Shown one piece after another: positions 29,028 through 32,923 of a stretch of DNA of 64,000 nt. Source of the DNA: Haloarcula laminariae (GTDB lineage Archaea > Halobacteriota > Halobacteria > Halobacteriales > Haloarculaceae). Each line of letters begins with the position of its first letter. Positions within the stretch are counted from its first letter, which is position 1. The stretch lies in assembly GCF_025457605.1 (NCBI RefSeq), contig NZ_JAMZFY010000002.1, positions 372,001-436,000 on the forward strand, in the 5' to 3' direction. Below the pieces are notes generated by a model that saw only the letters and a list, made by a program, of their open reading frames with translations, made no database searches and was not told the DNA's origin. A program made the translations under genes and the position numbers.

Positions 29028-29470
29028 CCGTTTCTCACCACCAGTAGCTCCGTGTTGGACTGCTCGTCCCGGTAGTTCCCGCTGGAGGGCGGTTTCACCG
29101 AGAACGTCACCGTCCCCTCCTGCTGGTTCGGTCCCAGCGACGGGTCGACCGACAGCGCCGCCTCGCCGTCGTCGCCCGTCGTGGCCGTGGTAACGCTGTC
29201 GAGGGTCGCGGTACCGCTCTTTGCGACGACCGTCGCGTCCGCGACCGGCGACCCCTTCGGGTCGACGACGGTGACGGTCACGTCGGTGTCGCCGGGCCCG
29301 GTCACCTCGGGGTCGGGTTCGACGTCCACCTCGGTCACCTGAATCGTCCCGAGCCCCGAGATGGTGCTCATCATCACCCCGAGACAGGCGACGCCGACGA
29401 CCAGCGCGATGACCAGCCTGATGGGGAGTCCCTCTATCGCCCGTTCGTCACGCCACAGTGAGTGAGGCAT
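29024..29470 (-). CDS. Secreted/anchored protein with an Ig-like domain
   Basis: 148 residues. The N-terminus DERAIEGLPIRLVIALVVGVACLGVMM resembles the anchoring helix of haloarchaeal pilin-like or membrane-anchored proteins. After it comes a beta-sandwich domain (DTDVTVTVVDPKGSPVADATVV... DDGEAALSV), the pattern of carboxypeptidase-regulatory/Ig-like folds. It is probably exposed outside the cell. Function unknown. Confidence 0.7.
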   Translation of the reverse strand: MPHSLWRDERAIEGLPIRLVIALVVGVACLGVMMSTISGLGTIQVTEVDVEPDPEVTGPGDTDVTVTVVDPKGSPVADATVVAKSGTATLDSVTTATTGDDGEAALSVDPSLGPNQQEGTVTFSVKPPSSGNYRDEQSNTELLVVRNG

Positions 29471-29569
29471 GGGCCGGGCTGGTCGCGGGTTGGTACTTGA
29501 ACCGTCGGGCGAAGGCCCAAGGGCGATGGCGGGACCAGACGAAGGGCTACGAACGGCCCGCGCGGCGGC

Positions 29570-29935
29570 TTACAGCCCGGCGAGGGCGACGACCCCCCAC
29601 GCCAGCCCGATGGCCGCCATGGCGCCGACCAGGTTCGCGGCCGCGTTGACCCCCGCCCGCAGTCGCTCGCCCGACTCCCACAGGCGGACGGTGTCGAACG
29701 AGAACGAGGAGAACGTCGTGAACGAGCCGCAGGCGCCGGTGCCGACGAGGAGGAGGAGCTCGGTGTCGAGGCCGGCGAACGTGACCAGCCCGAGGACGAA
29801 GCTCCCGACGACGTTGACGGTGAGCGTCCCCAGCGGGAACCCCTCGACGTCGACCGCCGACCCCAGATAGTGCCGGCAGAGGGCGCCGATAGCGCCGCCG
29901 GTCCCGACGAGGTGGGCGGGGTCGATAGTCACCAT
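29570..29935 (-). CDS. crcB: Fluoride exporter CrcB/Fluc, subunit 2 of a tandem pair
   Basis: 121 residues, four helices. Fluc channels export fluoride as dimers. Family motifs are GGAIGALCRHYLG near residue 12, NVVGSFVLG near 42 and the phenylalanine-box segment GSFTTFSSFSFDT near 73. It overlaps the upstream crcB copy by seven bases (29929-29935), so the two are co-translated. Two non-identical subunits in tandem usually form an antiparallel heterodimer. Confidence 0.93.
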   Translation of the reverse strand: MVTIDPAHLVGTGGAIGALCRHYLGSAVDVEGFPLGTLTVNVVGSFVLGLVTFAGLDTELLLLVGTGACGSFTTFSSFSFDTVRLWESGERLRAGVNAAANLVGAMAAIGLAWGVVALAGL

Positions 29936-30318
29936 CGCTGCTCCCTCCGTTCGACGGCGGCGACCGCTTGGCGAGCGACGAGCACGCCGCCAAAGCCCAG
30001 CGCGTAGCTCGCGAGGACGTTCGCCACGGCCCACTCCGGGGTCAGCGCGGTCTCGACGGCGAACGTGCTGTAGGTGGTAAACGAGGAGAGGAAGCCGGTC
30101 GTCGCGGCGAGTTTGGTCTCGTCGGCCAGGACGCCGAGATGTATCGCCTCGTACAGCAGACAGCCCAGCGCGAAGCTCCCGAGGGCGTTCACGATGAGCG
30201 TCCCCTGCAGCCCGGGGACCAGCGAGCCGACGAAGTACCGGAGGTTCGAGCCGGCGAAGCCGCCGATGCCTATCAGCACGACCGTTTCGACCGTCAGCAG
30301 TGGATGTGACTCTGTCAT
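29929..30318 (-). CDS. crcB: Fluoride exporter CrcB/Fluc, subunit 1 of a tandem pair
   Basis: 129 residues. Motifs GGFAGSNLRYFVG near 20, NALGSFALG near 45 and SSFTTYSTFAVET near 79 mark Fluc. It is the first gene after a leader with the features of a fluoride riboswitch. ATG 30318 lies just beyond the 3' end of that leader. It differs clearly from the second copy, as expected for heterodimeric Fluc. Confidence 0.93.
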   Translation of the reverse strand: MTESHPLLTVETVVLIGIGGFAGSNLRYFVGSLVPGLQGTLIVNALGSFALGCLLYEAIHLGVLADETKLAATTGFLSSFTTYSTFAVETALTPEWAVANVLASYALGFGGVLVARQAVAAVERREQRW

Positions 30319-30325
30319 GGGCGGA

Positions 30326-30400
30326 TAACAGGAGTCATCAGCCGGGTCCGGCGACGGGAGCGGTCCAGGCGGTTGGGGCGGGCGGACTCCATCGCCCGTG
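30326..30400 (-). promoter_or_regulatory. Fluoride riboswitch (crcB motif)
   Basis: Read on the minus strand, the leader of crcB has the conserved blocks of the crcB RNA in order: GGGCGATGGAG (30397-30387), CGCCC (30384-30380), AACCGCC (30374-30368) and GGCTGATGACTCC (30343-30331). The expected pairings are present: GGGCG (30397-30393) with CGCCC (30384-30380), and GGAGTC (30390-30385) with GACTCC (30336-30331). A third, longer stem lies between AACCGCC and GGCTGATG. The aptamer ends within about ten bases of the crcB ATG. Fluoride binding should turn on the exporter pair. Confidence 0.88.
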
Positions 30401-30424
30401 TGGGCCCACTGTTTCGCGAGTCCG

Positions 30425-30430
30425 CGTTTA
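30425..30430 (-). promoter_or_regulatory. Probable TATA box of the crcB operon
   Basis: TAAACG on the minus strand predicts initiation near 30402, which is at the very 5' edge of the riboswitch aptamer. The agreement supports both calls. Confidence 0.45.
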
Positions 30431-30487
30431 GCCGTTCCGGAATCGAGGGGACACAGCGCTGAAGGCCCCATGGCGCGACGTTCGGAT

Positions 30488-31594
30488 ATGGACCCCGCGG
30501 AGCTTCGCGCGGCGATACCCGCACTCGACCGCTGTACGTACTGCAACACGGGCGCGAGCGGCCCCAGCCCGCGCACCGTCGTCAGGGCGGCGACGGACTT
30601 CCTGGAACACCACGCCTTCGAGGCGCCCGGCGGCGAGGGACCCTACACTGTCGCCTTCGACGCCCTCGAAGCCGCTCGCGAGGTCGCCGCCGGCCACCTC
30701 GGCGCCCGCCCCGCCGACGTGGCCTTCACCCGCTCGACGGCCGACGGCATCAACCTCGTCGCCGGTGCTATCGACTTCCAGCCCGGCGACGTGGTCGTCC
30801 GCACCGACCTCGAACACCCCGCCGGGACGCTGCCCTGGGACCGGCTGGCAGACACCCACGACATCGAGGTCCGGGTGCTGGAGACCGAGGCCGGACGCGT
30901 AGACCTGGACGAGCTGAAAGCCGCCGTCGACGGCGCCCGACTGCTTCTCACCAGTTCGCTGACCTGGAGCCACGGCACCCAGCTACCGGTCAGCGAGATG
31001 GTGGACATCGCCCACGACGCCGGGGCGCAGGTGCTCGTCGACGCCGTCCAGTCGGTCGGGCAACACCCGGTCGACGTGGGCGAGTGGGGCGCCGACTTCG
31101 TCGCGACGGCGGGTCACAAGTGGCTGCTGGGCGTGTGGGGCAGCGGCATGCTGTACGCCGACCCCGACGCCCTCGACTCGCTTCGCCAGACCCGCATCGG
31201 CTACCGCAGCGTCCAGGAGATGGGCGCCGACGACTACGCCTACCACGAGGGCGCCCGCCGCTTCGAGGTCGGCACCACGTCGCCGGCGCCCTACGTCGCG
31301 CTCGCGGAGGCCATCGAGACGATGGAATCGGTGGGGCTCGACACCGTCGAATCGCGCGTCGCGGGCCTGACCGACCGGCTGAAGGAGGGGCTCGGCGACC
31401 GGCTCTTGAGCCCCGAAGGGTACGAATCCGGGCTCGTCACCTTCGAGGCCGACGACCCCGAGGCGACCGTCGAGCGCCTGGGCGAGCAGGGTATCGTCGT
31501 CCGGTCGCTCCCCTACCCCGAGGCCGTGCGGGCGTCGATTCACGTCTTCAACACTCCCGGGGAAATCGACGCGATACTCGACGCAGTGGCGTAG
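30488..31594 (+). CDS. Class V aminotransferase-fold PLP enzyme
   Basis: 368 residues of the cysteine desulfurase / isopenicillin-epimerase fold. The PLP lysine is in TAGHKWLLGVWGSG near 210. FTRSTADGINLVA near 80 and VDAVQSVGQ near 183 are family motifs. The only Cys residues are at the N-terminus (CTYCNTG); the catalytic loop Cys of true desulfurases is absent, so sulfur transfer is unlikely. It could be a lyase or epimerase. ATG 30488 is chosen because residues before it do not fit; ATG 30470 is also possible. Confidence 0.8.
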   Translation: MDPAELRAAIPALDRCTYCNTGASGPSPRTVVRAATDFLEHHAFEAPGGEGPYTVAFDALEAAREVAAGHLGARPADVAFTRSTADGINLVAGAIDFQPGDVVVRTDLEHPAGTLPWDRLADTHDIEVRVLETEAGRVDLDELKAAVDGARLLLTSSLTWSHGTQLPVSEMVDIAHDAGAQVLVDAVQSVGQHPVDVGEWGADFVATAGHKWLLGVWGSGMLYADPDALDSLRQTRIGYRSVQEMGADDYAYHEGARRFEVGTTSPAPYVALAEAIETMESVGLDTVESRVAGLTDRLKEGLGDRLLSPEGYESGLVTFEADDPEATVERLGEQGIVVRSLPYPEAVRASIHVFNTPGEIDAILDAVA

Positions 31595-31639: not shown

Positions 31640-32923
31640 ATGGACGGACCGGTCGTCACCTGCTTCCTGCGCAACGACGGCGAGATACTGCTCCTGCGCC
31701 GGAGCGACGGCGCCGGGCGCTCTCGGGGCCAGTGGGACGGGGTGGCCGGCCCAGTCGAGCGCGACGACGGCACCGAGCGCGACCCCGAGACGGCCGCACG
31801 CGCCGAAATCGCCGAGAAAACCGGCTTGGCCGACGCCGTCACGCTCGTCCGGCCGGGCGAGCCCGTCCCCGTCGAAGACGGCGAGCGACGCTTTCCGGTT
31901 CACCCGTTCCTGTTCGACTGTGACTCGCGGGCCGTCGAAGCCGACGACGGGACCGCCGAGTACGAGTGGGTCCACGCGCCCGAAATCCTGCGCCGCGAAA
32001 CGGTCCCGTGGCTGTGGGCCAGCTACGACCGCGTTCGGCCCCGGGTAGCGACCCTCGCCGACCGGACGCACGGCTCGGCGTGGCTCTCCCTGCGCGCGCT
32101 CGAAACGCTCCGCGACGAGTCGGCGCTGGCGGGGCTGAACCGAGACGGGGCGGGAGAGACGAGCGAGCGCGACGGCGACGGCTGGTCGGCGCTGGCCGAC
32201 CTCGCCCGCCGCCTGCGGGGCTCTCGCCCGTCGATGGCGGTGCTCGAAAACCGCGTGAACCGCGTGATGACCGCGGCGATAGACGAACGGACTGCCGAGG
32301 CCGTCGAGCGGGCCGGCCGCGGCGCCATCGCCCAGGCCGTCGACGCCGACAGCGAGGCCGCCCGACTGGCCGTCGACGCCGTTGGCGAGCGGGTGGCGAC
32401 GCTGTCGCGGTCGGGGACCGTCGCGGCGGCGCTCCGGGCGGCCGACCCCGAGGCCGTGCTGGTGGCCGAGTCCCGGCCCGGCGGCGAGGGCGTCGGTGTC
32501 GCCGAGTCACTGGCCGACGCGGCGGCCGTGACGCTGACCACGGACGCGGCCTTCCCGTTCGAACTCGACGAGTGGGACGCCGACACGCTGGTCGTCGGCG
32601 CGGACCGGGTGTTGCCCGACGGGCGCGTCGTCAACAAGGCGGGCACCCGCGGGGCGGCGCTGGCGGCGGCCGAGGCGGGCGTCGACTGTCTGGTCGTCGC
32701 GGCCAGCGACAAGGTCGCCGCCGACGGCGAGTACGACCTGGAGCCCCGCGACCCCGACGAACTGTACGACGGAGACGCCGACGTGACCGTGGCGAACCCG
32801 ACCTTCGACGTGACGCCGGCCGACGCGGTCGCGTCGGTCGTGACCGAGCAGGGACAGCTCTCGACGGACGAAGTGGCGGCCGTCGCGGCCGCTCACCGGG
32901 AGTGGACGGCGTGGGACCGGTAG
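31640..32923 (+). CDS. NUDIX domain fused to an eIF2B-like / ribose-1,5-bisphosphate isomerase-like domain
   Basis: 427 residues. Residues about 1-140 form a NUDIX domain (VVTCFLRNDGEILLLRRS... GQWDGVAGPVE). Its Nudix box is degenerate: the REUxEExGU core reads AEIAEKTGL, losing Arg and one metal Glu. Residues about 180-425 are an eIF2B-alpha-type domain, with GADRVLPDGRVVNKAGT near 325 and VAASDKV. Such domains occur in translation factor eIF2B, methylthioribose-phosphate isomerase and R15P isomerase. The fusion may sense or transform a nucleotide-sugar; function is not established. A leaderless start at 31640 is likely. Confidence 0.8.
   Translation: MDGPVVTCFLRNDGEILLLRRSDGAGRSRGQWDGVAGPVERDDGTERDPETAARAEIAEKTGLADAVTLVRPGEPVPVEDGERRFPVHPFLFDCDSRAVEADDGTAEYEWVHAPEILRRETVPWLWASYDRVRPRVATLADRTHGSAWLSLRALETLRDESALAGLNRDGAGETSERDGDGWSALADLARRLRGSRPSMAVLENRVNRVMTAAIDERTAEAVERAGRGAIAQAVDADSEAARLAVDAVGERVATLSRSGTVAAALRAADPEAVLVAESRPGGEGVGVAESLADAAAVTLTTDAAFPFELDEWDADTLVVGADRVLPDGRVVNKAGTRGAALAAAEAGVDCLVVAASDKVAADGEYDLEPRDPDELYDGDADVTVANPTFDVTPADAVASVVTEQGQLSTDEVAAVAAAHREWTAWDR

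Follow-up and report, generated by a model that had tools for sequence, protein, structure and literature searches.

A predicted fluoride riboswitch before an overlapping crcB pair in Haloarcula laminariae, with a proposed start-codon switch

We found that the minus-strand leader at positions 30405-30322 of a 64,000-nt stretch of Haloarcula laminariae DNA (hereafter, the window) is almost certainly a fluoride aptamer, for which fluoride binding is predicted. Judged on the sequence evidence as a whole, the leader is probably a fluoride riboswitch that switches crcB1-crcB2 through a masked start. In the mechanism that we propose, the riboswitch would make up nearly the whole 5′ leader of the crcB1-crcB2 operon, and entry of fluoride would turn the exporter on.

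A predicted fluoride aptamer in the leader of two crcB genes

An Rfam scan of the whole window gave an RF01734 match on the minus strand at 30405-30322 (41.4 bits, E 4.8e-8, model positions 1-64 of 64). The sequence-only reading of this DNA had named the Rfam covariance model as the check on its claim of a fluoride aptamer, and the match lies above the gathering score of 34 bits. It is the only RF01734 match in this genome. A covariance model built from 26 haloarchaeal aptamers (R1) scored 65.1 bits at the window aptamer and 16.2 bits at the next-best place in the whole genome; the window aptamer is one of the 26 sequences, and its R1 score is therefore favoured. The aptamer and its parts are as follows.

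30322..30405, minus strand: predicted fluoride riboswitch aptamer (41.4 bits with RF01734; 65.1 bits with R1)
30393..30397, minus strand: P1 5′ strand GGGCG, partner CGCCC at 30384-30380 (sequence; helix 98.5% paired in 26 haloarchaeal sequences)
30380..30384, minus strand: P1 3′ strand CGCCC (sequence; 26-sequence alignment)
30385..30390, minus strand: pseudoknot 5′ strand GGAGTC (helix 98.7% paired; two-sided changes in 2 of 6 pairs)
30331..30336, minus strand: pseudoknot 3′ strand GACTCC, also used by the proposed anti-aptamer hairpins (sequence, folding, alignment)
30341..30370, minus strand: P3 with a long 24-nt loop, GCC at 30370-30368 pairing with GGC at 30343-30341 (Rfam match, alignment)

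GAUG, AACC, GGCUGAUG and a U behind the pseudoknot, the letters that cover the conserved core around the Mg-fluoride site and the A40-U48 linchpin, are found in the window aptamer. The aptamer blocks and the helices GGGCG/CGCCC and GGAGTC/GACTCC, which had been recognized by eye, can indeed be read in the sequence, and the RF01734 match runs through them end to end. The span first noted, 30326-30430, is real and comprises the aptamer plus a promoter box, the Rfam match itself being 30405-30322. We placed A40 and U48 on the window aptamer by what we take to be the numbering of the Thermotoga structure. A linchpin role of A40-U48 in the fluoride riboswitch has been described (PMC8752731).

Downstream, two genes pass the Pfam CRCB cut-off of 32.9 bits, in agreement with the earlier claim that the aptamer lies before two overlapping crcB genes.

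29929..30318, minus strand: crcB1, fluoride channel subunit, 129 aa (Pfam CRCB 66.0 bits; NCBIfam crcB models)
29570..29935, minus strand: crcB2, second fluoride channel subunit, 121 aa (Pfam CRCB 88.9 bits; TIGR00494 above cut-off)

The genes overlap by 7 nt, and the crcB1 start codon (30318-30316) lies 12 nt past the pseudoknot. The gene at 30470-31594, which runs divergently from this pair, encodes a cysteine desulfurase-type class V aminotransferase; farther on, 31640-32920 on the plus strand encodes a NUDIX domain fused with an IF-2B family domain. In a protein search of named genomes, the closest relatives were Haloarcula sp. LUM.49 (87% identity) and Halobacteriales archaeon QS_6_64_34 (84%), followed by H. 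argentinensis (72%) and H. vallismortis (69%).

The aptamer would also be the first part of the RNA to be made.

30425..30430, minus strand: TATA-like box TAAACG, with a predicted transcription start at ~30400 (AT peak in homologues; sequence)

The AT content of about 70 homologous leaders rises to a peak at −33 to −29 from P1, and in the window TAAAC at 30430-30426 falls on exactly these positions, which backs the placement of the box in the sequence-only reading. The centre of an archaeal TATA box usually lies about 26-27 nt before the transcription start. Because the TATA-like box falls on an AT peak common to these homologues, the RNA would be expected to begin at the edge of the aptamer, and we infer that transcription starts a few bases before P1, at ~30400. 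A leaderless start within the aptamer was rejected, as no TATA-like stretch lies at the right distance before 30318.

Covariation in the haloarchaeal family

Among 26 distinct haloarchaeal sequences, 96.9% of the cells pair, compared with 91.3% after shuffling, and two-sided changes occupy 31 cells versus 10.3 in the shuffles (covariation score reached by 0 of 500 shuffles). Shifting the partner by one column lowers pairing to ~52%. The pseudoknot takes the forms GGAGUC/GACUCC (22 loci), GGGGCC/GGUCCC (33), GGGGUC/GACUCC (5), GGGGCU/GGCUCC (4) and GGCGUC/GACGCC (3), and it covaries across haloarchaea. The GGAGTC/GACTCC helix of the window had been described as covariation in its own right; for this single sequence the description fails because the helix is close to the Rfam consensus, whereas for the family the haloarchaeal alignment bears it out.

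Distribution among haloarchaea

Of 391 Halobacteria genomes, 66 contain an RF01734 match, which exceeds the gathering score in 34 of them, and 378 contain crcB. The haloarchaeal model gives at least 32 bits in ~96 genomes (hand count); thus, Rfam undercounts haloarchaeal fluoride riboswitches (66 versus ~96 of 391 genomes). Wherever coordinates of the haloarchaeal-model matches were compared with those of crcB matches, each of the former is followed directly by a crcB pair.

Within Haloarcula, only 3 of 24 genomes carry RF01734 (G000, G212 and G301). In the seven congeners examined, the crcB pair lies directly behind another gene, without a leader; the Haloarcula loci L081-L087, L145 and L146 show this arrangement, with no riboswitch. 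Given these riboswitch-free pairs, regulation differs inside one genus. One of the three genomes, G212, has four crcB genes (locus L002), with a riboswitch leader like the plasmid-borne ones of Haladaptatus and Halorarius (L157, L153).

A family of variant aptamers, f3 (L035-L050 except L045, and L102-L119; named relatives L154 and L156, Natronorubrum), has the pseudoknot GGGGCC/GGUCCC and long P3 loops (at least 60 nt in some), and most of its members fall under the Rfam gathering score. At the position that we take to be U41, C replaces U in this family. In L031 (G297) and L032 (G359), a fluoride riboswitch precedes a small membrane-like ORF, and a second one, ~415 nt after this ORF, precedes crcB. 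The ORF of L031 (~68 aa) has no Pfam match; it is possible that the small ORF of the two loci is a new fluoride-controlled gene. The crcB leaders of L130 and L132 (both f3) and of L158 (Halegenticoccus soli) contain decayed or rearranged aptamers, in which core letters are lost or extra sequence sits in the P1 loop, a possible loss of the switch.

Predicted pairing between the aptamer and the crcB1 start

We propose that, without fluoride, the 3′ part of the aptamer, GGCUGAUGACUCC, would pair just before and over the crcB1 AUG and hide the start codon. This part would be either in the fluoride-bound fold or paired around the AUG (UGACUC/GAGUCA plus UGUUAU/AUGACA), and translation of crcB2 would follow that of crcB1 by virtue of the overlap. 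The sequence-only reading had named no expression platform. The window leader allows two such anti-aptamer hairpins, which compete with each other.

30307..30337, minus strand: proposed anti-aptamer hairpin H2, UGACUC-C-UGUUAU-CCGCCC-AUGACA-GAGUCA (fold and ensemble)
30320..30343, minus strand: alternative anti-aptamer hairpin H1, GGC-U-GAUGAC-UCCU-GUUAUC-C-GCC (duplex −12.1 kcal/mol)

H2 has 12 pairs and one bulge, with the AUG paired; it forms when the window leader is folded without the pseudoknot, and its lower half is lost when the aptamer is imposed. H1, in which GGCUGAUGAC pairs with GUUAUCCGCC, ends 1 nt before the AUG; among 52 gene starts of the window and 300 shuffles, no duplex is as stable. 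Pairing of the aptamer 3′ part with the start region reaches −13.1 kcal/mol, compared with −4.6 ± 2.7 for 138 control starts, which are ORF-based rather than annotated genes and none of which is as low. A further option, in which CGCCC before the AUG competes with P1, was set aside, as CGCC recurs often in this GC-rich leader.

The complementarity extends beyond the window. Pairing of the aptamer 3′ part with the start is significant at P ≤ 0.05 in 22 of 69 loci (3.5 expected). Across 36 clusters of distinct start regions, the Stouffer Z is −6.7 when shuffles are the reference and −4.6 when control starts are, with the qualification that related leaders are not fully independent; taken singly, 10 of the 36 clusters are significant (P ≤ 0.05) and most are not. 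AGCY, the complement of the aptamer's RGCU, stands directly before the AUG in 14 of 36 clusters and in 0 of 138 control starts. GAGUCA (GAGTCA) occupies codons 3-4 in all four genes that stand closest to the window among those linked to a riboswitch (L001, L012, L143 and L144); of nine crcB1 starts examined from Haloarcula loci lacking the riboswitch, none has this motif. The pairing solutions vary by lineage: GGCUGACG/CGUCAGCC, UGGCUGA/UCAGCCA, GAUGAC/GUCAUC (L018 and L019), GACGAC/GUCGUC (L045) and UGACUC/GAGUCA. The arm GACAGAGUCA lies within the gene in L001/L012 and ahead of the AUG in L004/L006.

In the modelled window leader, the unpaired probabilities of the start codon are ~0.14 (A), 0.01-0.02 (U) and 0.002-0.01 (G) for the free RNA and 0.18-0.60, 0.06-0.22 and 0.03-0.09, respectively, for the docked RNA, the ranges depending on the length of gene folded and the parameters describing 1 M NaCl at 37°C rather than the haloarchaeal cytoplasm. 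Since the UGUUAU/AUGACA pairs can persist, docking releases the AUG only in part in this model. This partial release is the main weakness of what we consider the best explanation, namely that control is translational and works by start-codon masking; we lean slightly toward it.

Alternative explanations

In the fluoride riboswitch of Bacillus cereus, control is exerted through transcription termination, many bacterial crcB RNAs overlap terminators (PMC2864571), and the proposed anti-aptamer hairpins would also have the right shape for a terminator stem. However, there is no terminator-like site at 29400-30600, and none of 78 haloarchaeal loci has a run of five T from the aptamer to position +60 of the gene. 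A terminator expression platform was rejected on these two grounds, which make termination control quite unlikely, and in haloarchaeal loci the AUG follows the last U of the aptamer after a median spacer of 14 nt, which leaves little room for one. A Shine-Dalgarno sequence is likewise absent before crcB1 in the window, and SD-like letters occur in 9 of the 78 haloarchaeal loci. L031 has an SD-like GGAGG, and there UGACUCC of the pseudoknot strand can pair with GGAGGUCA if one base is bulged. If the aptamer is intact and its output is mRNA stability or another step, the complementarity to the AUG would merely shield the leader. The partial release of the start codon in the docked window model is consistent with such an output, which we nevertheless regard as unlikely: in many lineages the complementarity centres on the bases beside the AUG.

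The leader could also be decayed or constitutive, with a recognizable aptamer that does not switch. The window scores lower with RF01734 than its sister L012 (41.4 versus 50.8 bits), its P3 loop is long, most Haloarcula have crcB without the riboswitch, and decayed relatives such as L130 and L132 exist. Yet the conserved core is intact, P1, P3 (3 pairs) and the pseudoknot have kept their pairs, and four related genes retain the anti-aptamer arm, which makes decay very unlikely. The GC-rich leader and the short model invite the suspicion of a chance resemblance; with an E value of 4.8e-8 in the window, an R1 score that exceeds the genome's next best by 49 bits and a position exactly before crcB, its probability is practically negligible.

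Relation to known riboswitches and significance

The fluoride riboswitch (crcB motif) is known in bacteria and archaea (Weinberg 2010, PMC2864571). The window shares with RF01734 as described there P1, P3, the pseudoknot, the core, A40, U48 and the place before crcB; it differs in its 24-nt P3 loop, its haloarchaeal host and the lack of a terminator. According to PMC8241225 and PMC11549558, the only natural archaeal riboswitch tested experimentally is the Thermococcus fluoride switch, whose function is known from Speed 2018, as cited in PMC8241225. The Thermococcus kodakarensis switch (transcript in PMC4247193), like that of the window, is archaeal and presumed translational. It belongs to a thermophile and precedes TK0513, not directly crcB, whereas the window aptamer stands directly before crcB. 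Translational fluoride riboswitches without termination in vitro have been described in Pseudomonas syringae and Burkholderia pseudomallei (PMC13273304), the class that we propose for the window; unlike these, the window leader has no Shine-Dalgarno sequence, and its proposed target is the start codon. The synthetic theophylline riboswitch E of Haloferax volcanii (PMC8241225) masks the AUG and opens on ligand, as proposed for the window, but it is synthetic, has another ligand and also masks a Shine-Dalgarno sequence. A literature search, with most subscription journals outside its reach, found no report on haloarchaeal fluoride riboswitches. Thus, the riboswitch class, its archaeal presence and its translational bacterial members are already known, and a start-codon platform free of Shine-Dalgarno sequences would, if shown, be a variant.

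We consider it an even chance that haloarchaeal fluoride riboswitches form a natural translational class, mostly free of Shine-Dalgarno sequences, in which the aptamer's 3′ half pairs with the start-codon region and which works at molar salt. Anion selectivity at molar chloride, raised in the sequence-only reading, is a matter for the bench and not one that the sequence reveals. In a group as amenable to genetics as the haloarchaea, a switch of this kind would open two questions to study: how translation can be controlled in the absence of a Shine-Dalgarno sequence, and whether an RNA pocket can select fluoride when chloride and potassium are present at molar levels. A further use could be as a leader with which haloarchaeal genes are induced by fluoride.
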